A DNA stretch of 41,837 nt from Bacteroidales bacterium (GTDB taxonomy: Bacteria; Bacteroidota; Bacteroidia; Bacteroidales; P3): contig JAFVBA010000009.1 of NCBI GenBank assembly GCA_017480245.1, positions 1 to 41,837 on the forward strand. The letters are read 5' to 3'. Each line of letters starts with the position of its first letter. The first letter of the stretch is position 1. The notes beneath the pieces were generated by a model. It was not told the DNA's origin. It worked only from the letters and a program-made list of their open reading frames with translations, and made no database searches. Below are positions 4,151 through 36,686 of the stretch, one piece after another. A program made the position numbers and the translations under genes.

Positions 4151-4226
4151 AAAGTGCCAAATCAGTAAATTGTTTTCAGAAAAGAGTAAAATGTTTTTTG
4201 AAAACAATTTTGTGATTCGGCACTTT
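4151..4226 (+). repeat. 76-bp palindromic repeat, copy A
   Basis: The outer arms begin AAAGTGCC and end GGCACTTT. Each arm is 26 bases and 23 of 26 positions pair. The asymmetric 24-base centre contains GAAAAGAGTAAAAT, shared by all five copies in this window. It starts 46 bases after the rimO stop. The arm carries the G:C version of arm column 22 (ATTGTTTT/AAAACAAT). The hairpin could act as a terminator or protect the 3' end. Confidence 0.85.
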
Positions 4227-4379
4227 AATCAAACCTTTCCTTTTCGCCGTATTTTTTTATCTGTATTCACAAATTTTTTTTTGAAAATAATCGTTTGAAA
4301 ATTAGCATAGTCATCGGTTATTAACAATGAATGTTTATAAGTTTATATTTTTTTTTGGCGTTATGTAATTTTTTATGTG

Positions 4380-4387
4380 TACTTTTG
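4380..4387 (+). promoter_or_regulatory. Promoter -7 box upstream of nrdD
   Basis: TACTTTTG fits TAnnTTTG. A TTTG (4354-4357) lies 22 bases upstream, slightly longer than the usual 19, so the -33 assignment is weak. A start near 4394 would give a leader of about 60 bases before the nrdD ATG. Confidence 0.5.
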
Positions 4388-4454
4388 CTAAACGAAACAA
4401 CAAGGTAGAGTATTAATAAAATTTTAACCATAAAAACAACACAAATATCAGGAT

Positions 4455-6632
4455 ATGAACACTATACATATTGTTAAGAGAGACGGAAAACAAGAAGTAT
4501 TTTCCATAGACAAGATAAAAAATGCCATAAGAAAGGCTTTCCTTTCAGTAGGTGGATATGCAACTGAATCTGACTTGACAGAGATTCTTTCACGCGTCAA
4601 TATTAAAGACGGAATGACGGTTGAGGAAATCCAAAATCAAGTTGAAATTGCATTGATGGCAGAAAAATATTATGCAGTGGCAAAATCCTATATGCTTTAC
4701 CGCCAAAGACATCAAGAAGACAGAGAGACGACAAGCAAAGTTAAGTTCCTTTTGAACTATTGCGCCGCAGAAAACGCTGCAACAGGCTCTAAGTTTGATG
4801 CGAATGCTAACGTTGAGTCAAAGAATATTGCAACGCTTATCGGAGAATTACCGAAACAAAATTTCATCCGTCTTAACCGCAGAATGCTTACCGACCGTTT
4901 GAAAGAGATGTACGGAAAAGATTTCTCCGACCGTTATCTTTATCTGTTGGAAAACCACTTTATTTATAAGAATGACGAAACTTCTTTGGCAAATTACTGT
5001 GCTTCCATTACGATGTACCCATGGCTTTTGAACGGAACGGCATCTATCGGCGGTAATTCCAAAGCTCCTACCAACTTAAAGTCATTTTGCGGTGGTTTTA
5101 TCAATATGGTGTTCATGGTTTCTTCAATGCTTTCCGGTGCATGCGCAACTCCTGAGTTCCTTATGTATATGAACTATTTTATTCAGAAGGAATACGGTGA
5201 GGATTACTATTTGAATTCTGACAAAGTGGTAGATTTGTCTGCTAAACAGCGTACTTTGGACAAGGTTATTTGTGATTGTTTCGAGCAAATCGTATATTCT
5301 ATCAACCAACCTACAGGAGCAAGAAACTTCCAGGCAGTATTTTGGAATGTTGCTTACTATGACAAATATTATTTCGAAAGTTTGTTCGGTGAATTCTTTT
5401 TCCCTGACGGCAGCCGTCCTCATTGGGACAGCCTTTGCTGGTTGCAAAAACGTTTTATGAAATGGTTTAACAAGGAAAGGACTCGTACCGTTCTTACATT
5501 CCCTGTTGAGACTATGGCGTTGCTATCTGACGGCGATGATTTCAAAGATAAAGATATGGCGGACTTCACTGCAGAGATGTATGCTGAGGGACATTCATTC
5601 TTTACTTATGTTTCAGACAACGCAGATTCGCTTTCATCTTGCTGCCGTTTGAGAAACGAAATACAAGACAACGGTTTCTCTTATACATTGGGCGCAGGAG
5701 GAGTATCAACAGGCTCAAAGAGTGTATTAACTATCAATTTGAACCGTTGTATTCAGTACGCAGTAAAACAAAATATCCCTTACTTACAATATATAGAAGG
5801 TATAGTAGATTTGATGCACAAAGTACAGACAGGATATAACGAAAACCTGAAAATGCTTTACAATAACGGAATGTTACCTCTATTTACAGCAGGATATATC
5901 AACCTTTCACGTCAATATCTTACCATCGGAGTAAATGGAATGGTAGAAGCAGCACAGTTTTTGGGCTTAGAAATAAACGACAATCCGAAATACGAGAAAT
6001 TTGTTGCCGACATATTGGGTATAGTTGAGAAGTTGAACAAGAAATACCGCACAAAAGAATTAATGTTCAACTGCGAAATGATTCCTGCTGAGAATGTAGG
6101 AGTAAAACATGCGAAATGGGATAAAGAAGACGGCTATCAAACCTTCCGTGATTGCTACAACTCTTATTTCTATATAGTAGAAGATGATTCTTTGAACGTT
6201 TTGGATAAGATTCGTCTGCACGGGAAACGCTATATTGAGCATTTGACAGGCGGAAGTGCGCTTCACTTGAATTTAGAAGAGCATTTGTCTCAGGCACAAT
6301 ACAGACAAATACTTAAAGTTGCGGCAAAAGAAGGATGTAATTACTTTACGTTTAACATTCCTAACACTATATGCAACGATTGCGGCCATATAGACAAACG
6401 TTATTTGAAAGAATGTCCTTCATGCGGTTCAACAAACGTTGATTACTTGACAAGAATCATCGGATATATGAAACGTGTAAGCAATTTCTCCGTTGCACGC
6501 CAGAAAGAAGCCGCACAAAGATATTATATCAACGTAAATAAAAACGAAAAACACATACAAGAACCTTTACCTGCCAGACATATAGAATTTTCTAAGGAAC
6601 AGGAAAAGGCAATAGCAGAAACGCTTGCATAA
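4455..6632 (+). CDS. nrdD: Anaerobic ribonucleoside-triphosphate reductase (class III)
   Basis: A 725-residue glycyl-radical enzyme that reduces ribonucleoside triphosphates to deoxynucleotides without oxygen. An N-terminal ATP-cone (about 3-95; HIVKRDGKQEVFS) is the allosteric site. The C-terminal zinc site CNDC...CPSC (C640, C643, C654, C657) comes just before the radical loop RIIGYMKR, with the radical glycine at G670. Length and order match NrdD. The activase gene nrdG follows after a 193-base spacer that holds a terminator-like hairpin. The enzyme implies that the organism lives anaerobically. Confidence 0.96.
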   Translation: MNTIHIVKRDGKQEVFSIDKIKNAIRKAFLSVGGYATESDLTEILSRVNIKDGMTVEEIQNQVEIALMAEKYYAVAKSYMLYRQRHQEDRETTSKVKFLLNYCAAENAATGSKFDANANVESKNIATLIGELPKQNFIRLNRRMLTDRLKEMYGKDFSDRYLYLLENHFIYKNDETSLANYCASITMYPWLLNGTASIGGNSKAPTNLKSFCGGFINMVFMVSSMLSGACATPEFLMYMNYFIQKEYGEDYYLNSDKVVDLSAKQRTLDKVICDCFEQIVYSINQPTGARNFQAVFWNVAYYDKYYFESLFGEFFFPDGSRPHWDSLCWLQKRFMKWFNKERTRTVLTFPVETMALLSDGDDFKDKDMADFTAEMYAEGHSFFTYVSDNADSLSSCCRLRNEIQDNGFSYTLGAGGVSTGSKSVLTINLNRCIQYAVKQNIPYLQYIEGIVDLMHKVQTGYNENLKMLYNNGMLPLFTAGYINLSRQYLTIGVNGMVEAAQFLGLEINDNPKYEKFVADILGIVEKLNKKYRTKELMFNCEMIPAENVGVKHAKWDKEDGYQTFRDCYNSYFYIVEDDSLNVLDKIRLHGKRYIEHLTGGSALHLNLEEHLSQAQYRQILKVAAKEGCNYFTFNIPNTICNDCGHIDKRYLKECPSCGSTNVDYLTRIIGYMKRVSNFSVARQKEAAQRYYINVNKNEKHIQEPLPARHIEFSKEQEKAIAETLA

Positions 6633-6815
6633 CATATAGTATATAGAACGTAGCATGTAGTATGTATGACCTGACGGGACGAAATATATACTTCATGCTA
6701 CGTTTTTTTGTACCTATGTTATATAATACTACTCCGATGTCCCAAATTAAATGCTACATACTACATGCTAAATAATATATGTTATATGCTACATGCTAAA
6801 TACTACATAAAATAA
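6629..6815. repeat. Nested inverted-repeat region built from CTACATGCTA motifs
   Basis: The spacer between nrdD and nrdG is built almost wholly from degenerate copies of ATGCTACATACTACATGCTA in both orientations. Its left end (6629-6667) is roughly the inverse of 6745-6788, giving an imperfect inverted repeat of about 160 bp. It contains the tighter hairpin at 6647-6704. The same motif recurs inside a gene at 31289-31320. It could be a miniature non-coding mobile element or an expanded simple repeat; no transposase was seen. Confidence 0.55.
6647..6709 (+). terminator. Terminator-like hairpin after nrdD
   Basis: The arms AACGTAGCATGTAGTATGTAT (split here as 6647-6657 and 6658-6667) and 6684-6704 pair along about 21 positions with few mismatches. 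The loop is about 16 bases and the downstream arm runs into a T tract (TTTTTTT, to 6709). This would end or attenuate transcription between nrdD and nrdG, lowering activase level relative to reductase. Confidence 0.65.
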
Positions 6816-6825
6816 ACTTTTTACA

Positions 6826-7293
6826 ATGTTAAAATATTTTAATTACGATATTGTTTTCCAGGAAATCCCCAATGAAGTTACTTTGGCGGTGAATTTCTCT
6901 CTTTGTCCCAATCATTGCGAAGGTTGTCATTCACCTTGGCTTTGGCAGGACAGAGGCGAAGAGTTTGATTTACAGACTTTGGACAATCTTATCAGAACTT
7001 ATCACAGCAATTTCACTTGTTTTGCTTTTATGGGCGGAGATAACGACCCCGAAGCAGTGAATAAAATGGCTGAATACATAAAAGAAAACTATGAAAATAT
7101 CAAAACGGCGTGGTATAGCGGCAAGGACGAGATATCAGATAAGATTGAAATAAAAAATTTTGACTATATAAAAATAGGTAGTTACAAAAAAGAATTCGGA
7201 AGTTTGAAAGACAAGACGACAAATCAAATTTTATGGAAGATAAACGGCGATTTGTCAAAAGAAGATATCACCTATCTTTTCCAAAAACGGTAA
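6826..7293 (+). CDS. nrdG: Anaerobic ribonucleotide reductase-activating protein
   Basis: A 155-residue radical-SAM activase that makes the glycyl radical in NrdD. The 4Fe-4S motif CPNHCEGC gives C27, C31 and C34 (CxxxCxxC), followed by HSPWLW as in NrdG. MGGDND (about 68-73) is the SAM-contacting glycine-rich stretch. The length is typical. It lies downstream of nrdD in the same direction, separated by the hairpin region 6629-6815, so expression may come by read-through. Confidence 0.93.
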   Translation: MLKYFNYDIVFQEIPNEVTLAVNFSLCPNHCEGCHSPWLWQDRGEEFDLQTLDNLIRTYHSNFTCFAFMGGDNDPEAVNKMAEYIKENYENIKTAWYSGKDEISDKIEIKNFDYIKIGSYKKEFGSLKDKTTNQILWKINGDLSKEDITYLFQKR

Positions 7294-7366
7294 TTAGCAA
7301 AACAAATTTTAGTAAGCAAAAAAGGCAATTCAGATAAAATTTTCACTGTTTTGATGCAGTTAAAAT

Positions 7367-7442
7367 AATGTGGCGAATCAGTAAATTCTTTTTTGAAAAG
7401 AGTAAAATGTTTTCAGAAAAGAATTTCGCGATTCGGCACTTT
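7367..7442 (+). repeat. 76-bp palindromic repeat, copy B
   Basis: The same element as at 4151 but with the most decayed left end (AATGTGGC instead of AAAGTGCC); 21 of 26 arm positions pair. The GAAAAGAGTAAAAT centre is intact and the right arm ends GGCACTTT followed by ATTTTT. It begins 73 bases after the nrdG stop and carries the C:G version of arm column 22. Confidence 0.83.
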
Positions 7443-7633
7443 ATTTTTGTGAAATCAAATTGCCAAATTTTCTCTTTTTGATTTGTTGTTGTGATAATTT
7501 ATAAAGGATTAAAGAGATGAAATTTCAAGAAAGCAGCAGACCTTTTTACTAAATTTAGCTGACTTTTTTGTAATCTTTTGCAGATTTTTTGCAAAAAATT
7601 TCATGTTTTTGTGTCTTTTTTGAGAAAAATCAT

Positions 7634-7641
7634 TAAATTTG
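7634..7641 (+). promoter_or_regulatory. Promoter -7 box of the T9SS cargo gene
   Basis: TAAATTTG matches TAnnTTTG. A TTTG (7608-7611) lies 22 bases upstream. Transcription near 7648 would leave a leader of roughly 23 bases before the ATG at 7671. Confidence 0.6.
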
Positions 7642-7670
7642 CAACTCAATTCATAAAAACGATAAGTAAA

Positions 7671-10481
7671 ATGACATCAATAAAAAAAGTAATTGCTTAT
7701 ACATTGTGTACGATTAGTTTTTTTTTAATTAACAATCAAACACTTAGAGCTCAAAATTCAGCAGAAACTACAGGACAGGGATGCGCACATGTTGAAATAT
7801 TTGAGATGATTAACGATGATACTGTGAGTTTCACTGCGTCAGATAGAAACCTCGGGCTGTTTCTTTCCTGTGATAGATGGAAAAGAGTTTTGTATCCTTA
7901 TGGATTCGCCCCTGGTTACCCGGATCCCGACAAAGGATACTATACTTATGAAAAAATAACGTATGCTCCTCCGACGGAATTCAACAAAGGAGACAAAATT
8001 ACTTTACCTGCAGATGACTGTTGGAGTGAAATGTTCTCTTTTGATTACTATTTCCCGCCTAAAGAGGACTCCGATACTCCGGGATTCAGTTTTTACTTCT
8101 ACGATGAGTCGTATAACATTGTTATGGCGAACTCTAACGGCGGTCTTCACATGTTTAACACCTCAAGTCCGCTGCTTACTTATGCTATAGCCAATAATAA
8201 AAATCTTTATCAGAAACCTACGTACGGTAACTACTTATATTGTCCTTATTCCACCTCGCAAACATTTCCTGACAATAGGACACAATGGGGTTCATACGCC
8301 TCTCCGGTTTTAAATTCCATCAACGGACCGTTCTGCGACATCAATTACGGGTTGGCAAGCGGCAATCAAGGAATGTATATCAACTTTATAGGCGAATACC
8401 CTTGCCGAATGTGTATATTATCTTTCAATGACATTCCGATGTATGGCAATGACAATAAAGACACTGCACGTATTACTTCAATGATTGTGCTGTATGAGAC
8501 GACAAATGTAATAGAGTTTTACATGAAAAGGAAACCTGTATTTACTTCAACCAATGGTTCCAACGCTATATTGGGAATTCAAAACGTCGATGGCACAAAA
8601 TCAACTACTATTACCAACAATAACTACACAGCAAAAGGCGCTTCAAAAACACAATCCTACAATAACACGGTATGGGAAGCCACAAACGAAGCATGGCGTA
8701 TCTCTCCGACGGGAGAATTGACCAAATCATTTGCATGGTATAAGAAAAACACGGAAGGAAATTTGAAAGACTCACTTCAACTTTTGGTAGAATCAAACGA
8801 TCCTCAAACAATAGATGCAAATCCTGAGTTAGACGAGGGGGACACTTGGTACTATGCTAAAATGATTGTAACACGTATGGAAGACGGATTGGAATTTGAG
8901 GTATGGGATTCAATACTCGTTCATCCGTTGGACGTTCCTGCTTTAACCATTTCGCACAACAGCGCCGACAATCCCGAAACTGTCAAAATGAATTCCGACA
9001 GCCTTTCAAGATATGACACAATCTGCGCAGGCGATAGAGTAACCTTTAGATTCAAAGGCGGGGACGAATACCATTTTGTTGAACCTGCAAGTTTGGCTGC
9101 CCAACAAATCTTAAACGGTACGGCAACCATTTATCAAAATCCGGATGTTGAGAAAGTATTTTATAAATTCCAGGTAATAAATTTCAAAAACGGAAACAAA
9201 AACGACACAGTCTGCAAAAGATATGACTCAGTCTATATAGTCAATAGAAAAGTTGCGGTCAATATAGGTAATGACTCTGCCGTATGTCAAGGACAAAGCG
9301 TACTGTACTTTGATACTCTGAAAGAGAATACTGGAGATTATCTTTGGACTTTCAATTCCGTTGTCAGCACTGTTGATTCTGCTTTATTCGTTCCTGAAAA
9401 CAGCGGTACTCTTACTTTAAAACTGACTGACAACAGGGCATGTTCGGCTACCGACGAGGCGCAGATTAATGTTATTAAGTATCCTGTGATAACTATTGAG
9501 GGAGATAAGGACATTTGCAACGGAAGTTCCACTACCCTAACCGCAAAACACGACGCAGACGGTGTGCTTTACCAATGGTCTAACGGAGGTAACGGAGCTT
9601 CTATCACAGTACAGCCACAGGTAACCACAGATTACGAAGTCAATGTAACAACTGATACCGCACTTTGCACAAGTACTAAATCTACAACGGTTAATGTATA
9701 TCCTATTCCGCAGATTCAAACTTTGGAAGACGCAAAAATATGTGCAGAAGAGACGGCTCTTATAGGTGTTACAGGAGAAGCCGAGCGTTATGAGTGGTCT
9801 TCCAAAGATGCTTCGGTCAATCAAGGTACTTTAACCGAATATACCGTTTCTCCTGAGACAACTACACAATACACGGTTACGGCTTACAATAATCCAACAT
9901 TGAATTGTCAATCTTCGGCAACGATGACTGTCTTTGTTGAGCAAAAACCTAATCCTGTCATTGCAATGTCTCCTGAGTTTATCGATGAATTGACTCCTGT
10001 TGTCGTATTTACGGACAATACTGTCGGAACTGTAGATAGGTTATGGGAGATTTCGGACGGAGCAACCTCAACGGATAAGAATTTCAGGCATACTTTTGAA
10101 CTTGAAGACTCAATTGCAACCTACTATGTTACACTTATCGGTTATACGGGCTTTGGTTGTACGGATTCCGTTACTAATGAGATTTCCGTAATAAGAGACC
10201 ATCATATTTGGGCGCCGACAGGTATTTATATTCACTCAACTAATCCTTCCAACTCAAGATTTCAGTTGAATGTCGATGCCGTTGAGGATTTCAATCTCAA
10301 AATTTTTGACCGTTGGGGTACGGTAGTATTTGAAACAAATGACGTTACTCAGTCATGGGATTGTACCTACAAAGGAAAACCTGTGCAACAAGGAGTTTAT
10401 TCCTGGTATGCAAGTTATCACCACTCCGATTCACCAGACAGATTGATGCAAAAAGCAGGTACATTTATGATTTACAATTAA
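7671..10481 (+). CDS. Secreted multi-domain surface protein with a type IX (type B) sorting domain
   Basis: A 936-residue exported protein. It has a signal peptide (MTSIKKVIAYTLC...TLRAQ, about 1-28), then a long N-terminal region rich in aromatic residues and Asn with no family I recognise. Roughly four PKD/Ig-like modules follow, each with a Cys pair and a YxWS or LWxxS core (about residues 520-830). The last 90 residues form the gliding-motility-type C-terminal domain (DFNLKIFDRWGTVVFETND, GVYSWYASY), the T9SS type B sorting signal. It is expected to cross the outer membrane by T9SS and be shed or surface-bound. The start was chosen because the signal peptide and promoter both fit 7671, not the upstream in-frame ATG at 7578. 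The ligand or role is unknown. Confidence 0.85.
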   Translation: MTSIKKVIAYTLCTISFFLINNQTLRAQNSAETTGQGCAHVEIFEMINDDTVSFTASDRNLGLFLSCDRWKRVLYPYGFAPGYPDPDKGYYTYEKITYAPPTEFNKGDKITLPADDCWSEMFSFDYYFPPKEDSDTPGFSFYFYDESYNIVMANSNGGLHMFNTSSPLLTYAIANNKNLYQKPTYGNYLYCPYSTSQTFPDNRTQWGSYASPVLNSINGPFCDINYGLASGNQGMYINFIGEYPCRMCILSFNDIPMYGNDNKDTARITSMIVLYETTNVIEFYMKRKPVFTSTNGSNAILGIQNVDGTKSTTITNNNYTAKGASKTQSYNNTVWEATNEAWRISPTGELTKSFAWYKKNTEGNLKDSLQLLVESNDPQTIDANPELDEGDTWYYAKMIVTRMEDGLEFEVWDSILVHPLDVPALTISHNSADNPETVKMNSDSLSRYDTICAGDRVTFRFKGGDEYHFVEPASLAAQQILNGTATIYQNPDVEKVFYKFQVINFKNGNKNDTVCKRYDSVYIVNRKVAVNIGNDSAVCQGQSVLYFDTLKENTGDYLWTFNSVVSTVDSALFVPENSGTLTLKLTDNRACSATDEAQINVIKYPVITIEGDKDICNGSSTTLTAKHDADGVLYQWSNGGNGASITVQPQVTTDYEVNVTTDTALCTSTKSTTVNVYPIPQIQTLEDAKICAEETALIGVTGEAERYEWSSKDASVNQGTLTEYTVSPETTTQYTVTAYNNPTLNCQSSATMTVFVEQKPNPVIAMSPEFIDELTPVVVFTDNTVGTVDRLWEISDGATSTDKNFRHTFELEDSIATYYVTLIGYTGFGCTDSVTNEISVIRDHHIWAPTGIYIHSTNPSNSRFQLNVDAVEDFNLKIFDRWGTVVFETNDVTQSWDCTYKGKPVQQGVYSWYASYHHSDSPDRLMQKAGTFMIYN

Positions 10482-10507
10482 CAAATCAAATAAAACACTG
10501 AACTAAA

Positions 10508-10789
10508 ATGAACATTGAAGAAAACTTTACCTTGATAAGACAACTAACAGAGGCGGAACAGTACGAAGAAGCTTTAACTGCTGTTAATAACTTATTGGAA
10601 GAAGACAAGAAAAACGATTTTGCTTGGTATCTGAAAGGAAATATATTCAAAAAACAGGAAAAATGGCAGGAGGCAATCAACTCTTATACCGAAGCCATCG
10701 CCATCAATCCTAAGAATCCGGCAACTACAATGCGCAGAATCTGCATTGACATTCTGAACTTCTACGATAAAACTCTTTACAATCCATAA
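10508..10789 (+). CDS. Small TPR-repeat protein
   Basis: 93 residues with one clear tetratricopeptide unit (WYLKGNIFKKQEKWQEAINSYTEAIAINPKN, about 45-75) and a degenerate one before it (about 8-40). The tail ILNFYDKTLYNP is characteristic of short TPR proteins of Bacteroidales. It is probably a cytoplasmic protein-binding adaptor; the partner is unknown. It begins 26 bases after the T9SS cargo gene and repeat copy C follows, so it is likely the last gene of that transcript. Confidence 0.8.
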   Translation: MNIEENFTLIRQLTEAEQYEEALTAVNNLLEEDKKNDFAWYLKGNIFKKQEKWQEAINSYTEAIAINPKNPATTMRRICIDILNFYDKTLYNP

Positions 10790-10840
10790 AAATTCAGTAA
10801 TAAACCTTAAAAGAATGTGCCGATAAAATAAGACGGAAAT

Positions 10841-10916
10841 AAAGTGCCGAATCATAAAATTGTTTTCAGAAAACATTTTACTCTTTTCAGAAAACAATTT
10901 ACTGATTCGGCACTTT
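10841..10916 (-). repeat. 76-bp palindromic repeat, copy C
   Basis: Arms 26 bases each, 24 of 26 paired. The centre is in the opposite orientation to copies A, B and D (ATTTTACTCTTTTC on the plus strand). It starts 51 bases after the TPR gene stop. It carries the G:C version of arm column 22 (ATTGTTTT/AAAACAAT), as in copy A. Confidence 0.85.
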
Positions 10917-11068
10917 ATTTCAACTATACTAAAACGGCGTTTTGATTTACTTCAAAATCTCTTAGCAAAACGGAAGTTTATGTCCGTTTTTCTTACATAA
11001 AATTTACACATCAATCATAATGAACAAAAAATAAGGAAAATAGACAATTTTATTATTCAAAATTTGTG

Positions 11069-11076
11069 TATCTTTG
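11069..11076 (+). promoter_or_regulatory. Promoter -7 box of the DUF5686/inositol-lipid operon
   Basis: TATCTTTG matches TAnnTTTG exactly. No TTTG is present at the -33 position (ACAATTTTATT instead). Because the inositol-lipid genes follow the DUF5686 gene by only 5 bases, this may be the promoter for the whole run to about 18000. Confidence 0.6.
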
Positions 11077-11129
11077 CAGTTTCAATCAAATTTAAAGGAG
11101 TTGTTAAGAATTTACTTTAAAACATACTG

Positions 11130-13706: not shown

Positions 13707-13711
13707 GGATT

Positions 13712-15274: not shown

Positions 15275-15283
15275 TAATGAGAA

Positions 15284-16252: not shown

Positions 16253-16289
16253 AGCGTTATCATAATTTAAAGATAAGGTAAAAAAGCAG

Positions 16290-25666: not shown

Positions 25667-25684
25667 CACCCAAAATTCATAAGT

Positions 25685-26992: not shown

Positions 26993-27000
26993 AAAAAATA

Positions 27001-27030
27001 TTGTTAATTGGCAATTGTTTTGTAAATTTG
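27001..27030 (+). promoter_or_regulatory. Promoter of the ftsX-uppP-truB operon
   Basis: TTG (27001-27003), 19 bases, TAAATTTG (27023-27030). It matches the phylum consensus in both boxes and spacing. The transcription start near 27037 lies about 24 bases before the ftsX ATG. It sits in the short gap after lysC. Confidence 0.75.
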
Positions 27031-27060
27031 CAAAATCTTTAATTCAAAAAAGAAATTGAT

Positions 27061-27939: not shown

Positions 27940-27940
27940 A

Positions 27941-28207: not shown

Positions 28208-28224
28208 CACAAAATTATTATCCG

Positions 28225-28284
28225 AAAAGAATTTACTAATCACTCAAATAAATTTATTAATATGCGTGATTAGTAAATTCTTTT
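28225..28284. repeat. Inside-out palindrome related to the 76-bp repeat
   Basis: Perfect 19-base inverted arms (AAAAGAATTTACTAATCAC at 28225-28243 and its complement at 28266-28284) enclose a 22-base AT-rich centre. The arm core AAAAGAATTTACT is that of the 76-bp family, but here it faces outward and the AATCAC side faces the centre. GCGTGATTA recurs right after it (28285-28293). It lies 17 bases after DUF3098, ahead of uppP. Confidence 0.7.
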
Positions 28285-28361
28285 GCGTGATTAATAAAAC
28301 AAGAGGACATATTATTCAAAACAATTGTGATAGCTAAAAATTTAATTGAGAAATAAGTACA

Positions 28362-29219: not shown

Positions 29220-29225
29220 TTATCA

Positions 29226-30005
29226 ATGTTAGTAGATATTAAAGAGGGACAATATTTCCTTGTAGATAAACCTTATACTTGGACATCGTTTCAAGTAGTC
29301 AAGAAATTGAAAATAGCAATCCGTAAATTAACAGGCGAAAAGAAATTCAAAATCGGGCATGCAGGAACGTTAGATCCTCTTGCTACGGGATTGTTAGTCG
29401 TATGCCTTGGCAAATGGACGAAAAAGATTGAGGAGTTTCAGGCATTGGATAAAGTCTATACAGGAAGTTTTCATTTGGGAGCGACAACTAAAAGTTTCGA
29501 TATGGAACACGAGGAAGACAAACAGTATCCTACCGACCATATTACCGAAGAAATGATTGTTCAAACCGCAAAATCTTTTATCGGAGAGCAAATGCAGATT
29601 CCTCCAGTGTATTCTGCGGTCAAGATTGGCGGCAAACGTCTGTTTTCTTATGCAAGAAGTGCCGACAATATGAGTACTTCCAACGATAAAGAGAGATTGC
29701 AGGAAGGTAACTCCTCATTGCAAAACATTGAAGAGGAAATAAAATCCCGTAAAGTCAATATTTATGATTTTGAAATCACAAAAATAGAGTTTCCCGAGGT
29801 ATTTTTCTCTATTAAATGCTCCAAAGGAACTTATATCCGTTCAATTGCGCGGGATTTCGGTCAGAGATTAAATTCGGGAGCCTACCTTTCTTCTTTGCGA
29901 AGAGAGAGTATCGGAGATTATAATGTCCTTTCGGCATTATCTCCCGATGATTGGGAGAAAGAAATAATGAATGCAGAATACAGAAAAACGGAATTACAAA
30001 ATTAA
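29226..30005 (+). CDS. truB: tRNA pseudouridine(55) synthase TruB
   Basis: A 259-residue enzyme that makes pseudouridine 55 in the T-loop of tRNAs. The catalytic site is GHAGTLDPLATGLL with nucleophile D50. Later motifs are VPPVYSAVK-like (IPPVYSAVKIGG) and CSKGTYIRSIARDFG. It begins 6 bases after uppP and ends just before a lysozyme-like gene, so it is cotranscribed. In many relatives queA follows here; it does not in this window. Confidence 0.95.
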   Translation: MLVDIKEGQYFLVDKPYTWTSFQVVKKLKIAIRKLTGEKKFKIGHAGTLDPLATGLLVVCLGKWTKKIEEFQALDKVYTGSFHLGATTKSFDMEHEEDKQYPTDHITEEMIVQTAKSFIGEQMQIPPVYSAVKIGGKRLFSYARSADNMSTSNDKERLQEGNSSLQNIEEEIKSRKVNIYDFEITKIEFPEVFFSIKCSKGTYIRSIARDFGQRLNSGAYLSSLRRESIGDYNVLSALSPDDWEKEIMNAEYRKTELQN

Positions 30006-30022
30006 ATAATTGTAATACTTAA

Positions 30023-31129
30023 ATGAAACTGAAAGAATTTTATTACAAAAAGCCTGTCAAAATAATAAGGAAAGTATTTGTCTATGGCTTTGCCCTATTC
30101 GGATTGGGAGTATTCGGAGCGTGGGCAATATATGAACTCGGGCTTACAAACAACGGCGGATTGGTTGATAAAAATAACCGCTATCTTGCCTCAATAAGTG
30201 ATGACAAGGCGGTAAATAAGCAAGACTCAACAGCAAGATTCGTAACCCAAAACTATTTGAAGTTACTTACTTTAGGTAAATTGTATCCTCATAATGCAAA
30301 ATTGATAATTGACGGACTGCGCAACTCAAAAGACGACAGTCAAGTTGCACAAATGCTGCGTGCCTGCGAAATGTATTTGCAAAATGACGAGAAATACCAA
30401 AACCTTTTGAAACAAGGGCAAAATATTTACGGAACTGCATCGGTTAGAGACAATAACTACAACGCTATTGAGTGGATGAACACTATTGAATGGGAAGCTT
30501 TGAAACCTTCTATCATCAAAGACAGCGCTGCCATCAATAAAGCGGCACAGATTACGGGCGTTGAACCGCGTATGATAGTAGGTTGTTTGGTTGGGGAGCA
30601 AATCCGTTTGTTCAATTCCAAAAGAGAAATGTTCAAAAAGTATTTAGGTCCTGTCAAAATGTTAAGCGTACAAAGTCAATTCTCTTTCGGTGTTAATGGT
30701 ATCAAAGATTTTACCGCCAGAATGGTTGAAGACCACTTGAAAGACAAAAATTCTCCTTTTTATATGGGAGAAAAATACGAACATATCTTGGATTATAACG
30801 GTTATGTCAATGATTCCGTCCGTATAAAGCGGTTAGTGGATTACCGAGACCACACTTATTCTTATATTTACACAGGTTGTATTATCCACCAGACAAGAAA
30901 CCAATGGAAAAAGGCAGGTTATGATATCAGTAACCGACCTGACATTCTTTTTACCTTATTTAATGTCGGCTTTGCGTCCTCTAACCCTTCTCCAAACCCA
31001 CAATGCGGAGGCTCACACATAACAGTAGGCGACAAAATCTACACCTTCGGAGTTATAGGTTTTGATTTCTATTACTCAGGTGAGATGTCAGATGTTTTCC
31101 CTTACTGGAAAGACAGGTTTATTGACTAA
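30023..31129 (+). CDS. Membrane-anchored protein resembling a lytic transglycosylase
   Basis: 368 residues. A single N-terminal membrane helix (about 17-39) leaves a large extracytoplasmic domain. The region around EPRMIVGCLVGEQIR has a Glu (E192) placed as in lysozyme-like transglycosylases, followed by QSQFSFGVNGIKDFTA. Conserved Cys and Pro lie near the C-terminus (SSNPSPNPQCGGSHIT). The family resembles DUF1402, but I am not certain. It follows truB by 17 bases in an operon with cell-wall genes, which fits a peptidoglycan role. Confidence 0.55.
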   Translation: MKLKEFYYKKPVKIIRKVFVYGFALFGLGVFGAWAIYELGLTNNGGLVDKNNRYLASISDDKAVNKQDSTARFVTQNYLKLLTLGKLYPHNAKLIIDGLRNSKDDSQVAQMLRACEMYLQNDEKYQNLLKQGQNIYGTASVRDNNYNAIEWMNTIEWEALKPSIIKDSAAINKAAQITGVEPRMIVGCLVGEQIRLFNSKREMFKKYLGPVKMLSVQSQFSFGVNGIKDFTARMVEDHLKDKNSPFYMGEKYEHILDYNGYVNDSVRIKRLVDYRDHTYSYIYTGCIIHQTRNQWKKAGYDISNRPDILFTLFNVGFASSNPSPNPQCGGSHITVGDKIYTFGVIGFDFYYSGEMSDVFPYWKDRFID

Positions 31130-31205
31130 AGAGATTTGTAACTTATAATATAAGCAAGAGAAAATTCGGCATAAATTATGCTAAACATCAAAAAAATTTA
31201 ATAAG

Positions 31206-31646
31206 ATGAAAAAAACAATCATTATATCCGCAATATGTTTAACCTTTATCACAACAAAGGCAAATAACATCATATTTCAAACAAACAATATGCTACATTC
31301 TACACACTACATGCTACATAAATCTATGGTTCCCGCAGACCCGCGCCCGCGGACTATAAAACAGCCTAACGGAAAGACGCTTACGTTTTATATTAGGGGT
31401 GATGAACGGATTAGTTGGTGTGAAACTTTGGACGGATACACGCTTTTGAATAACGAGGAGGGTAATTTGGAATATGCATGCATAGATGAAAATCTCAATT
31501 TAGTACCTTCGGGAATTTTAGCTTCCAATACAGAGGAAAGAGATGAAGAGGAGTTGAACTTTTTACGCGAAATAAAACCAAAACTATTCTTTTCAAAACA
31601 ACAAACCGACTTAATGCTCGGAAGATGCAACAACCCTACAAAATAA
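31206..31646 (+). pseudogene. Remnant of a secreted M6-type protease (signal and propeptide only)
   Basis: 146 residues. A signal peptide (MKKTIIISAICLTFITTKA) is followed by the propeptide segment VPADPRPRTIKQPNGKTLTF, with RGDERISWCETLDGYTLL, as found at the N-terminus of M6-like secreted proteases of Bacteroidetes. The catalytic HExxH domain and sorting domain are missing: the frame ends at 31646 and the next gene is unrelated. A CTACATGC-type repeat (31289-31320) is in frame just after the signal peptide and encodes MLHSTHYMLH. It is probably a truncated gene; a short stand-alone secreted protein remains possible. Confidence 0.55.
31289..31320. repeat. Copy of the CTACATGCTA repeat inside the M6 remnant
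   Basis: TATGCTACATTCTACACACT followed by ACATGCTACATA matches the repeat motif at 6749-6815. It is in frame within the M6 remnant, between its signal peptide and propeptide. Confidence 0.55.
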
Positions 31647-31681
31647 ATAGGTATTTTACTTTACTATAATTAAATATCTGT

Positions 31682-32638
31682 ATGTCAATGCGGATAAGTG
31701 AAACCACAAAAGGACATCTTGTTATTCTATTAACCAATATTATTTTCGGAATAAACACTCCTATTGCAAAGGATGCCCTTAATATTATAGGACCTTATAT
31801 ACTCAGTACATTCCGTTTCGCAGGCTGTGCTGTGTTGTTTTGGATTGCATCATTTTTATTTAAAATACCGAAAGTAAATAAGAAAGACATCGGTTTGTTG
31901 TGCCTTGCCTCTTTGTTCGGAATTGTATTTAATTTATTTGCTTTTATTTTGGGACTAAGCAATACCACTCCTACCAATGCTTCTATTATAGTTAGTATGA
32001 CACCTATATTTACTATGATAATGGCTGCTATATTTTTGAAAGAGCCTTTAACATTGAAAAAAGCAATAGGCGTAATGTGCGGATTGTCAGGTGCATTGAC
32101 TTTAATATTTACCAAACAGACTACCGCAACAGTACTTGCTAAGAACAACGTTTTAGGAATTATCTTCTGTTTAGTGAGCGGTGTGTCATACGCTTTGTAT
32201 CTTACTCTGTTTTCTTCACTAATCAAACGCAACCATCCTATAAACATTATGAAATGGATGTTTTTGGCTTCAACCATTGCAGTACTTCCTATAACGTGGA
32301 GTGAAGTAAGCAGTTTTAATTACTCTGTTTTGACAACAAAAACATGCCTTGAAATTAGTTATGTGGTAGTGATGGCAACGTTTTTAAATTATATGTTCAT
32401 ACCTATTGCACAGGCAAGATTAAGACCTACTACCCTTTCTATGTATAACTATGTCCAACCAATAGTTACTACAATTATTTCAATAATAACCTTTATGGAC
32501 GTGCTGAATATATACAAAGTAATAGCAGCGTTGCTTATTTTCGGCGGAGTTTATATAGTTACCACTTCAAGAAGCAAAAAACAGACGGCAGAACAGGTAA
32601 AAGCCAAACAAACTCTTGAAGAAATTACAGCAAATTGA
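31682..32638 (+). CDS. EamA-family (DMT) transporter
   Basis: A 318-residue inner-membrane protein with about ten helices in two EamA repeats. The first half has ITPFTMIMAAIFLKEPLTLK-like features and the second YVQPIVTTIISIITFMD. Such proteins export amino acids, nucleosides or other metabolites; the substrate cannot be read. An alternative ATG lies two codons downstream (31688). The final 25 residues are a charged cytoplasmic tail. Confidence 0.85.
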   Translation: MSMRISETTKGHLVILLTNIIFGINTPIAKDALNIIGPYILSTFRFAGCAVLFWIASFLFKIPKVNKKDIGLLCLASLFGIVFNLFAFILGLSNTTPTNASIIVSMTPIFTMIMAAIFLKEPLTLKKAIGVMCGLSGALTLIFTKQTTATVLAKNNVLGIIFCLVSGVSYALYLTLFSSLIKRNHPINIMKWMFLASTIAVLPITWSEVSSFNYSVLTTKTCLEISYVVVMATFLNYMFIPIAQARLRPTTLSMYNYVQPIVTTIISIITFMDVLNIYKVIAALLIFGGVYIVTTSRSKKQTAEQVKAKQTLEEITAN

Positions 32639-32918
32639 ACTTCCCTCAACAGTATTACTCACAAGATTTTTAATTTCAGCGTACCTATAAACCCAACCAA
32701 CTGAACTATTCCCGCCCATACGTATCTTAACACCGCCCTTTCGTTTGTTCTTGCCGCCCTTTGCGAAGAAATTTTGAAAAAAACTCTTTTTTCTATATAA
32801 AAAAACAGTTTTTTTGACTCAAAAAAAGAGTTTTTTTCAAATTAAATTACGAAAGGGCGGCAAAAACTCTCCATAGGGCAATATTAAATTACCTTAGGGC
32901 AGTAAGAATTTTATATTT
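32639..32918. other. Convergent intergenic region
   Basis: A 280-base region between the converging EamA and mutS genes. It contains three partial copies of CCGCCCTTT/AAAGGGCGG and a long inverted repeat (32751-32863). No gene was seen. Confidence 0.7.
32751..32863. terminator. Large inverted repeat, probable bidirectional terminator
   Basis: 36-base arms start TTGCCGCCCTTT (32751) and end AAAGGGCGGCAA (32863). They pair with a few mismatches, and the stem continues through T6/A6 to an inner TTTTTTT/AAAAAAA hairpin. A third CCGCCCTTTCG lies at 32733. It sits between converging genes and could end both transcripts. Confidence 0.65.
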
Positions 32919-35558
32919 TTATTTTTTAAGCAGTGATTTGATTTTATTCAATTCGTTAAGTGCTTCAATCGGAGTAAGATTGTCTATATTCAAGTGCAAT
33001 AAATCTTCTTTGATTTGCAATAAAACAGGGTCATCAAGTTGAATGAAACTTGTTTGGAATGACATCTGCGCAGTTTTCTTTGCTTCTTTCTCTTCTTTGA
33101 GGCGTTTCTTGCTTGTGTTTTCGCCCTCGTCAATACCCAATTGCAATGAATCCGAGCGTTTTTCCTCTAACGAAACAAGCATATCGTCAGCCGTTTTCAA
33201 AACTTCTTTAGGTATTCCCGCCAAGCGTGCAACGTGCAAACCGAAACTTTGAGATGAACCGCCTTTTGCAATAGTACGCAAAAAGATTATTCTGCTTCCC
33301 AATTCCTTTACTGCAATGTGATAATTCTTTATACGATTGAAATGTTTTTCCATTGCAATCAATTCGTGGTAATGCGTTGCGAACAGTACCTTTGCCCTGT
33401 TCTTGTTGTCGTGAAGGTAAGAAGCAATAGCCCAAGCGATACTTACGCCGTCGTATGTAGATGTTCCTCTTCCGATTTCGTCCAACAAGACAAGTGAATG
33501 CGGGGAAAGATTGTTAAGAATTGATGCCGTTTCGTTCATTTCAACCATAAAGGTACTTTCTCCCGATGCTATGTTGTCCGATGCTCCTACGCGTGTGAAG
33601 ATTTTATCAACTATGCCTATCTCTGCACGTTTTGCAGGCACGTAACTTCCCATCTGGGCAAGGATTACTATCAACGCCGTCTGCCTTAGGTAAGCGCTTT
33701 TACCGGACATATTAGGCCCTGTGATAATTACTATCTGCTGTGTGGTAGTATCCAAATATACATCATTGGCAATATATTCCGTACCGACAGGGAGCATTTT
33801 CTCTATAACAGGGTGGCGTCCTTTGGAAATATGAAGTATATCCGTTTCCAAAATTTGCGGACGTGTGTAGTTGTTTTCCAATGCCACCAATGCAAATGAC
33901 AGTATGCAGTCAATATATGCAACACTCTGCGCCGTGATTTGCAGTTTGGAAATATAAGGAACGAATTTCAACAGAATTTCGTTATATAATGACGATTCCA
34001 AAGAGGAGATATTTTCCTGTGCATTGAGAATTTGTGTTTCTATTTCTTTAAGTTCGGGAGTTATATAGCGCTCGCAATTCGTCAAAGTCTGTTTTCTTTG
34101 CCATGATTGAGGCACTTTGTCTTTGTGAATGTTGGTAACCTCCAAATAATATCCGAAAACATTGTTGAAACCTACCTTAAGGGAAGAAATTCCTGTCATT
34201 TCGGCTTGCTCACTTCGGATTTTCTCCAAAACCTCTTGTGAATTGAATGCAATGTTTCGGTAATAGTCCAACTTCTCATTATACCCCGTTTTGACGGCAT
34301 TACCTTTATTTATATTGTTAGGGGCATTCTCATCAATGGATTGAAGAATAAAATCTTTTAATTCCGAGAAATCCTCAATCAACGGGAATATTTCCGAATT
34401 TTGATTGAAAGACAACAGAACTTCTTTCAGTTTTGCGATGCTGTCAAGTACATCTGCAAAGCGGAAAAGTTCATTGGGTTGAATACGTTTGAAAGATATT
34501 TTACTTATCATTCGCTCCATATCTCCGATATCCGCAATCAACTCCTTTACTTTCTCCCTTTGTTCATCGTTATATACAAACAATCCTACTGTTGTCTGAC
34601 GTCTTTCTATTACAGTCTTATCTTTCAGTGGTAATATCAACCATTGTTTCAATAATCTTGCACCCATATTACTTTGAGTGCGGTTGATAACGTTGTAAAG
34701 CGTGGATTTCTCGCCGCCGTTGGAGTAAATAAGTTCAAGATTGCGGATTGTAAAACTGTCCAACCACACAAAATTGCCGTTATCTATCCTTGAAATATTG
34801 CAAATGTGGGAAAGTTCGGTGTGATTGGTCTCTTTGATATAATAAATTGCAGCACCTGCGGCAATAACAGCCAACGGCATATTTTCAATTCCGAATCCCT
34901 TAAGCGAATTTACGTCAAAAACCTCAGCAAGTATATCATTTGCGAAAGCGGATGTAAAAACCCAGTCGTCATATCCTTTAGTAAGAATAGTATTTCCGAA
35001 TATTGCAAAAAAATCTCTTTCAAACTGTCTTTGCAATACTACTTCCCGTACATTGAAATCTTTTAATAGTTTATCAATATCGCTCTTTTTTCCCTGCGAA
35101 ACCAAAAATTCTCCCGTTGTTATGTCAATAAAAGCGATTCCGTAGTCATCTTTTTGTTTGTGAATGGCGCAAAGATAATTGCTTTGTCCGCCGTCAATAG
35201 CTCCGTCATTGTAAGAAATACCCGGAGTTACGATTTCGCTGACACCTCTTTTGACAATACCTTTTGCAAGTTTCGGGTCTTCAATTTGGTCGCAGATTGC
35301 AACCCTGCGTCCTGCCTTAAGAAATTTGGGAAGATAGGTCTCCAAAGCGTGATGCGGAAATCCGGCCAATCTATCTTGTCCTCCGCCGGCACGTTTTGTA
35401 AGTACAATACCCAAAATCTTGGAGGTATCTTCTGCATCCTGCCCGAAAGTTTCGTAAAAGTCGCCTACTCGGTACAGAAGTATGCAATCAGGATATTTGG
35501 CTTTGAATTCTCCGTATTGTTTCATCAACGGAGTAACGTTATCTGTGTTTTTAGCCAT
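32919..35558 (-). CDS. mutS: DNA mismatch repair protein MutS
   Basis: An 879-residue ATPase that binds base mismatches and starts mismatch repair. The mismatch-reading loop is VGDFYETFG with F34 and E36. The ATPase has Walker A GPNMSGKS and the signature GRGTSTYDG. The full set of MutS domains is present at normal length. It starts 2 bases after the manA stop, so it is translated from the manA mRNA. No mutL is nearby. Confidence 0.97.
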   Translation of the reverse strand: MAKNTDNVTPLMKQYGEFKAKYPDCILLYRVGDFYETFGQDAEDTSKILGIVLTKRAGGGQDRLAGFPHHALETYLPKFLKAGRRVAICDQIEDPKLAKGIVKRGVSEIVTPGISYNDGAIDGGQSNYLCAIHKQKDDYGIAFIDITTGEFLVSQGKKSDIDKLLKDFNVREVVLQRQFERDFFAIFGNTILTKGYDDWVFTSAFANDILAEVFDVNSLKGFGIENMPLAVIAAGAAIYYIKETNHTELSHICNISRIDNGNFVWLDSFTIRNLELIYSNGGEKSTLYNVINRTQSNMGARLLKQWLILPLKDKTVIERRQTTVGLFVYNDEQREKVKELIADIGDMERMISKISFKRIQPNELFRFADVLDSIAKLKEVLLSFNQNSEIFPLIEDFSELKDFILQSIDENAPNNINKGNAVKTGYNEKLDYYRNIAFNSQEVLEKIRSEQAEMTGISSLKVGFNNVFGYYLEVTNIHKDKVPQSWQRKQTLTNCERYITPELKEIETQILNAQENISSLESSLYNEILLKFVPYISKLQITAQSVAYIDCILSFALVALENNYTRPQILETDILHISKGRHPVIEKMLPVGTEYIANDVYLDTTTQQIVIITGPNMSGKSAYLRQTALIVILAQMGSYVPAKRAEIGIVDKIFTRVGASDNIASGESTFMVEMNETASILNNLSPHSLVLLDEIGRGTSTYDGVSIAWAIASYLHDNKNRAKVLFATHYHELIAMEKHFNRIKNYHIAVKELGSRIIFLRTIAKGGSSQSFGLHVARLAGIPKEVLKTADDMLVSLEEKRSDSLQLGIDEGENTSKKRLKEEKEAKKTAQMSFQTSFIQLDDPVLLQIKEDLLHLNIDNLTPIEALNELNKIKSLLKK

Positions 35559-35560
35559 TT

Positions 35561-36550
35561 TTAAAGCACGGTTATTTCCAAAATCTCCATCATCGGCGAA
35601 GGCTCTATTAATGTCTCTTTGGCAATTGCAGGAATCATCAAAATCTCTCCTGCTTTCAACGGAATTTTATCGCCCATACAGGTAACGAATCCGCTGCCTG
35701 CCACACAGAAATACAAATAGAACGTATCGGCATTGCTCAAATCCTTCCTCAATCCTGAAGTCAGAGGAATAAGGTTGGTAACAAAATACGGACTTTCCAC
35801 CAAATTGGTCGTTTCATTCAAATGGTAGTGATAATGACACTTCGCAGTTCCCTCTTGTGCGGATAAATCCATAACTTTCAACCCTTCCTCCAAATGCAAC
35901 TGCCTCGGGTTACCGTTATCATCCACTCTGTCCCAATCATATATACGGAAAGTGGAGTCAGATGACTGCTGAATTTCGGCAAGCAACACTCCCTTACCGA
36001 TAGCATGCACCGTACCGGCAGGAATGTAGTAAAGGTCGCCTTGTTCTGCGTGGTCGTGGTGAAGAATATCCTTTACAGTTTTGTTTCTTGTGCGGTTGAT
36101 AATGTCGGCTTTGGTCTCCTTTTGGTTAAATCCGCAATAAATTTTTGCATCTTCGTCCGCCTGAAGTACATACCACATCTCCGTTTTACCGTTTTGCATA
36201 TCATGCGCCCAAGCATAGTCATCATCGGGATGAACCTGCACCGAAAGATTGTCATTAGCGTCAATAATCTTGATAAGTAATGGAAAATCATCACCGAACC
36301 GGTCAAAATTATTCTCTCCTACCAATTCATCGGCATACATCTCCAAAACCTCTTTCAAAGTACATTCGGCAAGAAAACCGTTTTCCACTACAGTTTCTTC
36401 TCCTTCCACCGCACTTAACACCCATAACTCTCCGAGACGGTTAAGCGGCGAATAATCAATACCGATTAAGTCTCTTACTTTGTTGCCTCCCCAAATCTTG
36501 TCTTTGAACAGGGGCATAAATTTCAAAGGATATAATCCGCGTTCTTCCAT
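35561..36550 (-). CDS. manA: Mannose-6-phosphate isomerase, class I
   Basis: A 329-residue zinc enzyme interconverting mannose-6-phosphate and fructose-6-phosphate. It begins LKFMPLFKDKIWGGNKVRDL. It has the metal motif LSVQVHPDD (about 101-109), with EMWYVL (Glu ligand) and PAGTVHAIGKG (His ligand). The length is typical. A -7 box (36567-36574) lies just upstream, and mutS follows 2 bases after its stop. Repeat E lies upstream of its promoter. Confidence 0.93.
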   Translation of the reverse strand: MEERGLYPLKFMPLFKDKIWGGNKVRDLIGIDYSPLNRLGELWVLSAVEGEETVVENGFLAECTLKEVLEMYADELVGENNFDRFGDDFPLLIKIIDANDNLSVQVHPDDDYAWAHDMQNGKTEMWYVLQADEDAKIYCGFNQKETKADIINRTRNKTVKDILHHDHAEQGDLYYIPAGTVHAIGKGVLLAEIQQSSDSTFRIYDWDRVDDNGNPRQLHLEEGLKVMDLSAQEGTAKCHYHYHLNETTNLVESPYFVTNLIPLTSGLRKDLSNADTFYLYFCVAGSGFVTCMGDKIPLKAGEILMIPAIAKETLIEPSPMMEILEITVL

Positions 36551-36566
36551 ATCTGCTAATTTTTTG

Positions 36567-36574
36567 CAAAATTA
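36567..36574 (-). promoter_or_regulatory. Promoter -7 box of the manA-mutS operon
   Basis: On the minus strand, TAATTTTG (36574 to 36567) fits TAnnTTTG, with TTTA at the -33 position (36597-36594). Transcription would start around 36560, only 10 bases before the manA ATG. Confidence 0.6.
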
Positions 36575-36610
36575 CGAATTTTTAAATTCACTTTAAAATA
36601 ATATCAAAAT

Positions 36611-36686
36611 AAAGTGCCGTTTCAGTAAATTATTTTCAAGAAATATTTTACTCTTTTCAAAAAAGAATTTACTGAAACGGCACTTT
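36611..36686 (-). repeat. 76-bp palindromic repeat, copy E
   Basis: 25 of 26 arm positions pair. The centre is reversed (TATTTTACTCTTTT on the plus strand), with the invariant GAAAAGAGTAAAAT on the minus strand. The arms carry GTTTCAG/CTGAAAC where the others have GAATCAG/CTGATTC, a paired change. It starts 39 bases after the YD-repeat gene stop on the minus strand. Confidence 0.87.

Follow-up and report, generated by a model that had tools for sequence, protein, structure and literature searches.

Results

A palindrome family in lattice-bearing DNA

We analyzed a 41,837-nucleotide stretch of Bacteroidales DNA (the window; contig JAFVBA010000009.1 of assembly GCA_017480245.1), which lies on contig C8 of a metagenome-assembled genome (MAG) of 1.75 Mb and 70% completeness (G000, the home genome). 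Ten window proteins were scanned, including FtsY, RimO, the anaerobic NrdD and NrdG, IspD and ManA; one protein matched the type IX secretion system (T9SS) type B sorting domain, under that domain's cut-off. The nearest named relatives of NrdD belong to Bacteroidales MAGs, most of rumen origin, with RGIG9295 from water deer rumen at 98% identity. Five palindromes of 76 bp are spread through the window (Table 1). All home DNA analyzed carries a base-specific, dyad-symmetric lattice with a period of 21.03 bp that stays in phase over several kilobases, and its dyads are occupied by the 76-bp elements and by a small number of other long palindromes.

A preliminary description of this DNA had reported the five palindromes as exactly 76 bp long with an invariant centre, and re-checking reproduced both points exactly. 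The centre, GAAAAGAGTAAAAT, occurs exactly five times in the window, once in each copy (three times on the + strand and twice on the - strand). Palindromy of the window copies mostly extends past 76 bp into AAAAT...ATTTT, and the 24-base "centre" is itself largely palindromic, with TTTTCTGAAAA appearing twice in the family consensus, 21 bp apart. RNA folds of both strands of all five copies gave z-scores of -7.2 to -17.2 against dinucleotide shuffles. The pattern AAAGTGCCN{40,80}GGCACTTT, whose matches are the copies with perfect AAAGTGCC/GGCACTTT ends, was found at 40 places in the home genome, every one of them 76 bp long, and a reversed control pattern was found at none. A covariance-model search, the check that had been named beforehand, placed the family at no fewer than 90 distinct positions in the home genome; this count is a lower bound because 150 of 3844 candidates were scored and all 150 matched. 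Length and centre were conserved in this larger set, 85 of the 90 copies being exactly 76 bp. The 85 comprise 82 distinct sequences with a median pairwise identity of 0.84, and one sequence is present unchanged at four loci. An A-tract lies ahead of the 76-bp elements and a T-tract behind, with conserved ends AAAAT/ATTTT. As the preliminary description had stated, no named family fits: Rfam 15 gave 0 matches at the gathering threshold in the window, which rules out a known structured RNA family, and none was otherwise found. One pattern scan across genome contigs also returned 0 matches, from a set in which close records were possibly left out.

The arms vary in their orientation to the asymmetric centre. 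At element positions 14-17 and 61-64, 26 of the 85 copies read AGTA/CGTG and 8 read ACGA/ACTG, as if the centre had been inverted within the palindrome.

Strength and location of the 21-bp lattice

The flanks of the home 76-bp copies have conserved positions every 21 bp (13/34/55, 17/59 and 94/115), even among 60 mutually dissimilar flanks of the 170. These repeats led us to test whether the spacing is special to the elements, and we found that it is not. In 477 kb of home DNA, made up of the window and 60 further stretches, the same base tends to reappear at spacings that are multiples of 21 bp, with autocorrelation peaks at 21, 42, 63 and onward. The excess is 0.0295 at lag 21, 0.0206 at 105, 0.0118 at 420, 0.0041 at 1050 and 0.0008 at 1260 (local standard deviation about 0.002). 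The home stretches, unlike most of those from relatives, were picked around elements, and the window includes DNA lying 5-9 kb away from the nearest element. Lattice strength at that distance is 0.0253, compared with 0.0215 at 11-500 bp (standard error, SE, about 0.003). With the elements masked, a circular hidden Markov model (HMM) of 21 states gained 9219 nats, compared with 981, 565, 614 and 1072 nats for 18, 20, 22 and 24 states. The lattice is therefore not debris of the 76-bp family, since it persists under masking and is equally strong far from any element.

The signal is seen in intergenic as well as coding DNA. In intergenic home DNA alone, the circular HMM gained 975 nats with 21 states versus 158 with 20 and 215 with 22. 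In genes, the lattice is carried mainly by synonymous sites. Fourfold third positions agree at a rate of 0.382 seven codons apart, versus 0.297 at six and 0.295 at eight, and amino acids show a small peak at lag 7 (0.0698 versus 0.0624 and 0.0642). Resampling synonymous codons lowered the coding match at lag 21 from 0.3028 to 0.2854, where lags 18 and 24 give about 0.279. Shuffling codon order in the window genes reduced the excess from 0.0249 to 0.0027 (SE 0.0011), a loss of about 90%. Protein heptads are rejected as the main source, given that fourfold sites carry most of the signal, intergenic DNA shows it, and resampling lowers the coding match. Chance or local repeats are ruled out by the 18-, 20-, 22- and 24-state controls, by the off-peak periods and by the codon-order shuffle.

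Individual genes differ in how much lattice they carry. Across 276 genes of at least 600 bp, the median gain was 21 nats per kb, and the lowest tenth fell below 5.4. Ten of the 13 lowest-gain genes were annotated: three encode T9SS cargo, two have fn3 domains, four lack Pfam matches and one is flavodiiron-type. The ten annotated among the 25 highest-gain genes were mostly ordinary enzymes, with three lacking matches.

Period, phase and symmetry of the lattice

We folded the raw autocorrelation without a learned profile and obtained a period of 21.03 bp at lags of 300-1000, 1000-2000, 2000-3500 and 3500-5000, and of 21.02 bp at lags of 5000-8000. Over the full range of 300-8000, the folded peaks stood 2.9 to 5.0 times above the off-peak mean. 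When synonymous codons were resampled and intergenic DNA was left unchanged, a peak near 21.02-21.08 remained but was 2 to 4.5 times weaker. An HMM that allows slips placed 22-bp steps at 1.375 per kb and 20-bp steps at 0.04 per kb. Phase was compared between independent 420-bp blocks, using the 620 of 1123 that were confident and dropping 503. Agreement, expressed as a resultant, was 0.96 at 420 bp, 0.79 at 2.1 kb, 0.57 at 5.0 kb and 0.34 at 10.1 kb, and block phase drifted steadily by 7.79 bp over 5.04 kb.

Readings of the + and - strands were offset by 15-17 in 169 of 203 neighbouring block pairs. This offset makes them readings of one lattice, which therefore has dyads. The home profile correlates with its own reverse complement at 0.71 at shift 16, and the next best shift gives 0.27. 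Read by eye from the profile, the lattice motif is YRAWWYSNSRWWTYR, centred on phase 18. The helical repeat of B-DNA is about 10.5 bp, and 21.03 equals 2 x 10.51. We looked for a one-turn signal using lags only, with the published AT2/MaxQ periodicity indices standing outside this test. Lags 10-11 lay within 2 standard deviations of the mean in every class, and lags 31-32 and 52-53 were not raised in intergenic DNA, where 21, 42 and 63 are.

Palindromes in register with the lattice

With the elements masked, the lattice inferred from their flanks sets a motif centre 10.45 bp from the element centre. This offset resolves the 76-bp element into four sites (Table 1), which match the consensus at 14, 11, 13 and 14 of 15 positions. 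For the 85 exact 76-bp elements, 107 of 170 flanks were usable, the rest being too short or too low-scoring, and the resultant was 0.985; random positions gave 0.054 (103 flanks). Phases read from the left and the right flank agreed within 2 bp in 37 of the 37 elements, out of 85, that were readable on both sides. We attribute the fixed 76-bp length to the genome-wide 21-bp lattice, the element being four sites in exact register.

Five further home palindromes had a usable flank, and those without one were left out of this count. Four are of other sequence, three of them in the window (Table 1), and one is a three-site relative of the 76-bp family. Their 8 flank measures fall on or near dyads, with a folded resultant of 0.80 (p 0.006). 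The three-site relative (L072 centre 66; contig C9 of the home genome, at ~225550) is a 59-bp palindrome with an offset of 20.6, the value expected for three sites, and its sequence, on reading, resembles the 76-bp family with one site fewer.

A second repeat is found near the elements. It is a hairpin, GTGCGGCTCGCAC, inside ATTGCCTGTGCGGCTCGCACCACTTTATTTT, present at 30 places in the home genome at no more than 1 mismatch (C9:153614-153626 and C15:17798-17810 among them), and it commonly lies 18 or 39 bp outside 76-bp elements.

Table 1. Positions of the lattice, palindromes and a direct repeat in the window; paired values are offsets from the two flanks.
Feature	Position	Strand	Remarks
21.03-bp lattice	1..41837	.	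Genes and gaps, at all distances from palindromes
76-bp palindrome, copy 1	4151..4226	+	Four lattice sites, with centres at element positions 7, 28, 49, 70
28-bp direct repeat (TAAATGCTACATACTACATGC...)	6748..6805		Between nrdD and nrdG
76-bp palindrome, copy 2	7367..7442	+	Starts AATGTGGC instead of perfect AAAGTGCC
76-bp palindrome, copy 3	10841..10916	-	Centre on - strand
76-bp palindrome, copy 4	23718..23793	+	Overlaps stop of ORF 23776-24456(-)
60-bp palindrome, other sequence, 21-bp units	28225..28284	.	Centred on lattice dyad; 10.9 / 10.1
69-bp A/T-rich palindrome, 22-bp units	32773..32841	.	Centred on lattice dyad; 20.4 / 0.6
76-bp palindrome, copy 5	36611..36686	-	Centre on - strand
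99-bp palindrome, AAAAAACCTATG units, 22-bp repeat	38368..38466	.	Near dyad; 8.4 / 12.6 (~2 bp off each side)

The lattice in related genomes

The lattice motif is common to other species that have different palindrome sequences, and its phase is kept in some blocks of nrdD. Elements are patchy among relatives, occurring in 10 of 14 genus genomes (home included) and 18 of 190 family genomes. Those of relatives differ in sequence but share the same build: they are 76 bp long in G006, G009, G013 and G156, and shorter by 21 bp, at 55 bp, in G008 and G001. All ten flank measures that scored above 6, taken from 75-76 bp elements of G006, G148, G013, G004 and G007, lay at 10.0-12.0. A 55-bp element of G008 measured 0.5 from either flank, in line with the prediction for three sites, at low scores of 3.5 and 2.1.

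We scored single stretches from 40 relatives, 38 of which were readable. The lattice reached a z of at least 5 in 11 (G003-G008, G012, G013, G147, G148 and G178), 2.5-4.2 in seven and less than 2.5 in 20, and all 13 readable stretches with a G+C content of 47% or more had a z of 2.6 or less. In longer samples, 21 states gained 8020 nats in G148 (389 kb), 3709 in G006 (287 kb) and 737 in G008 (120 kb), compared with at most 648, 343 and 299 nats for 20 or 22 states. Separately learned profiles correlated with that of the home genome at r 0.80 (G148), 0.88 (G006) and 0.62 (G008), and with their own reverse complements at 0.69 (G148) and 0.76 (G006), both at shift 16 as in the home genome. Best periods were 21.07-21.19 for G148, 21.05-21.11 for G006, 21.02-21.04 for G008 and 20.95-21.04 for G012 (20 kb only), and phase coherence in G148 and G006 had faded by 3-5 kb. 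The signal was weak in G009 and G170 (z 6.8 and 5.9 over 213-220 kb, with 21 the best of 14-40); their profiles do not match home (r ~0.3), and they showed no stable long-range period.

Among 74 named Bacteroidales loci of at least 7 kb, nine had a z of 4 or more: seven of 11 close relatives (L106-L116), L185 (Dysgonamonadaceae; MAG Cc175_bin86, z 5.3) and L176 (Prevotellaceae; MAG Nc350_bin194, z 4.0). The signal of the last two, which are labelled as other families, means that the lattice may be wider or of several origins. A Bacteroidaceae locus, L138, had a z of 3.2, and loci of Alistipes, Bacteroides, Parabacteroides and Tannerella had a z of at most 2.4. Within nrdD, blocks with clear scores kept the home phase in L106, L108, L109 and one block of L107. 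Phase was shifted by 3 bp in L111, and the remaining relatives were low-scoring or had no clear counterpart. Part of this agreement could be protein constraint, because NrdD is strongly conserved. At L110:6480-6599, we observed a 120-bp palindrome with CATATG-bearing units of ~21 bp, like the 99-bp palindrome of the window.

Discussion

A proposed chromatin model and candidate proteins

We propose that the palindromes represent high-affinity versions of a site that recurs degenerately every 21.03 bp, and that a dimeric nucleoid protein packs along the DNA at two-turn steps. We assign this reading a probability of about 0.5. The lattice and the register are direct observations, and the protein is predicted from sequence. 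Because 21.03 bp is two turns of B-DNA, the lattice may be the footprint of a dimeric protein packed on one face of the helix. The predicted dyad-symmetric protein would pack side by side along that face. Fit to the protein would select synonymous and intergenic bases, or its protection would bias them by mutation, and the pattern, once laid down in the sequence, would keep the packing in one register as the lineage evolves. As tandem near-consensus sites, the palindromes would nucleate or anchor packing, with three or four near-perfect sites binding strongest, and copying would have spread them through the genome without loss of register. Since the palindromes are copies of one another, duplication has to be invoked in addition to any lattice role. 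The fullest form of the proposal is more tentative, and we hold it at somewhat less than even odds: a bacterial chromatin with its register written in DNA, in which a dimeric protein would occupy 21.03-bp steps chromosome-wide, synonymous and intergenic bases would have evolved to fit, register would be kept over kilobases and partly between species, and the 55- and 76-bp palindromes (three and four sites) would be nucleation or anchor points.

A search of 20 genomes for candidate proteins found HU in all 20. HU-HIG matches below E 1e-12 were present in 12 of 12 genomes with a strong or weak 21-bp signal, at 1 to ~18 copies per genome (11 in G000), and in 1 of 8 genomes without the signal in one stretch. 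This co-occurrence is confounded by clade, and we regard HU-HIG as a weak candidate for the lattice protein. An archaeal-type histone is rejected: PF00808 matched none of the 20 genomes, and controls matched in 3 archaea. Expansions of HU-HIG (~11 to 18 matches below E 1e-12) were seen in G000, G007, G012, G147 and G170. HU-HIG has reportedly been proposed to act in genome conflict, and in the open-access literature we found no paper naming both "HU-HIG" and "Bacteroidetes".

Several observations weigh against the two-turn packing model. The plain Fourier spectrum of single stretches lacks a clear line, which we attribute to drift and slips, and lag folding was used in its place. HU-HIG copy number does not track lattice strength, since G009 and G170 have many copies and a weak signal. 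Bacteroides and Parabacteroides have HU-HIG, and no lattice was found in single loci of Bacteroides timonensis, B. oleiciplenus and Parabacteroides faecis. The lattice was also absent from several same-genus stretches (G002, and the short G010 and G011) and from 4 of the 11 close named relatives (L107, L112, L114 and L116). The register in relatives is clear at some loci only, and most others scored too low. Within the element, position 62 is no predicted centre and scores 14 of 15, while one predicted centre scores only 11; position 15 scores 12 of 15. These high scores show that the motif is degenerate. Finally, the flanking GTGCGGCTCGCAC hairpin, as worked out by hand, is not centred on a dyad.

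Alternative explanations

The lattice could be a mutational or mechanical mark, left on naked DNA by damage, repair or supercoiling in phase with the helix, with no dedicated two-turn protein and with the dyad palindromes as by-products. A period of two helical turns carried by synonymous sites suits this explanation. Several of the weakest genes encode secreted proteins or fn3 domains or are orphan open reading frames (ORFs), as a slowly accumulating bias would give. However, such a mark is hard to reconcile with the lack of a one-turn signal at lags 10-11 and at intergenic lags 31-32 and 52-53, and the base-specific 15-bp dyad motif and kilobase phase memory point to a bound, sequence-reading object that repeats every two turns. 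We consider this explanation unlikely.

A mobile origin is about equally improbable as a full account. The palindromes would be miniature inverted-repeat transposable elements (MITEs) of 76 or 86 bp, moved by a transposase encoded elsewhere, with the 21-bp units as transposase-binding repeats. The preliminary description had favoured a mobile or structured element over ordinary terminators. A family with many copies, beyond ordinary terminators, was borne out, and a MITE-like history is possible because four identical copies at different loci imply duplication. We found neither a clean empty site nor a convincing target-site duplication. The 90 or more dispersed copies at 0.84 median identity, the terminal inverted repeats with conserved AAAAT/ATTTT ends, the palindrome spanning the full length and the patchy distribution in relatives all resemble a MITE. 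Signals of target-site duplication were weak, however: the best among 1998 combinations of offset and length were a 2-bp duplication at offset 12 in 13 of 85 copies (4.0 expected) and a 4-bp duplication at offset 11 in 5 of 85 (0.7 expected). The closest loci, at ~83-84% nucleotide identity over nrdD, have gaps that do not align as clean empty sites, and no palindrome reached threshold in L106-L116 except one in L110. Also weighing against a MITE, the surrounding lattice closely predicts element position with the element masked, and palindromes of other sequence follow the same dyad rule.

The REP/BIME elements mobilized by RAYT (TnpAREP) are intergenic palindromic repeats near gene ends with many copies, and the 76-bp family resembles them in these respects. 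It differs in having its length fixed by 21-bp units and in its lattice register. The Y1/RAYT domain (PF01797) had 0 matches in the 70%-complete home MAG and in 10 other genus or g7 genomes, eight genus mates included, in a search that did not extend to other transposase families. The three matching genomes among the 20 searched all lie outside the genus and g7. On this absence, we rejected a REP/BIME system with RAYT. BrickBuilt of Porphyromonas gingivalis is described as a MITE with 23-nt tandem units (PMC4596501). BrickBuilt is likewise intergenic and multi-copy, with short tandem units and inverted-repeat ends, whereas the 21-bp units of the 76-bp family are in register with a genome-wide lattice. 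A viral origin was dismissed, as the core pattern matched IMG/VR at two places, both in other sequence that lacks the arms, and these matches were judged chance; one element copy searched against phages and another against plasmids gave no match.

We think it quite improbable that the elements are simply bidirectional terminators or RNA-stabilizing hairpins at gene ends, homogenized by gene conversion. They do form strong hairpins on both strands with an A-tract before and a T-tract after. By the ORF calls made within this analysis, which supply all gene positions, the window copies lie 46, 73 and 51 bp past a stop, overlap one by 18 bp and lie 39 bp past another; copy 4 in addition extends 10 bp into the start of the next ORF call. 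All five window copies are therefore 3' of a gene, as the preliminary description had said, but genome-wide this placement is only a bias and not a defining trait. The 90 copies divide into 52 in tandem gaps, 18 convergent, 13 divergent, 6 within an ORF call and 1 at a contig edge (55/21/13 and 1 unclassed in a coarser count), compared with 112 tandem, 42 convergent and 32 divergent background gaps of at least 76 bp in the same stretches. Copies in tandem gaps are closer to the upstream stop than to the start in 38 of 52 cases. Against terminators, divergent gene pairs flank 13 of the 83 classifiable copies, near the background of 32 of 186 gaps, and this explanation leaves the exact 76-bp length, the lattice register and the lattice of coding DNA unaccounted for. 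Terminator function in addition to a lattice role is possible.

Least probable, and in our view very much so, is a self-recognition or DNA-uptake code, by which cells would import lattice DNA, or a defence system would spare it, and so drive its spread: a code repeated in both coding and intergenic DNA, with paired palindromic copies, is reminiscent of uptake sequences, and some surface and orphan genes lack the lattice, but such a code does not require phase coherence over kilobases with a 21.03-bp drift.

Relation to known systems

Iteron arrays at plasmid origins have a same-face spacing of about 21-22 bp. They share with the lattice tandem protein sites two helical turns apart and differ in being local, at origins, rather than chromosome-wide. 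The "structural code" of bacterial genomes is a helical periodicity of ~10-11 bp carried at third codon positions (PMC4132750). A comparative study on periodicity and nucleoid proteins was restricted to periods of 9.5-11.5 bp (PMC3940949), and because only such peaks were counted, its index would miss a 21.03-bp lattice. The structural code resembles the lattice in its genome-wide extent, its occurrence in coding DNA chiefly at synonymous third positions, its link to the helical repeat and its discussion as a nucleoid feature. The lattice differs in having a two-turn period without a one-turn autocorrelation peak, in being base-specific and dyad-symmetric rather than based on A-tract phasing, and in its phase coherence over kilobases with palindromes in register. 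The HTa chromatin of archaea shows symmetric preferences around a dyad (PMC6877293). Histone and HTa chromatin resemble the lattice in dyad-symmetric WW/SS preferences, oligomerization behaviour and chromosome-wide extent, but the lattice is a pattern written in sequence with long-range register, in genomes where PF00808 had no match.

In the open-access literature, judged by titles and abstract openings and with subscription journals mostly outside its scope, we found no earlier report of a genome with a 21-bp lattice, nor of these palindromes. We know of no genome reported to have a sequence order of 21.03 bp that stays in phase for kilobases. Even without a mechanism, such an order is notable on its own. 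If the packing model is true, the base-pair-level organization of the nucleoid would be readable from sequence alone in uncultured gut bacteria, including the protein's position, two-turn repeat, symmetry and strong sites. The model would also tie codon choice to non-coding repeats and to the packing of the chromosome, and an old question, whether the bacterial chromosome has a regular primary structure, would be made testable.

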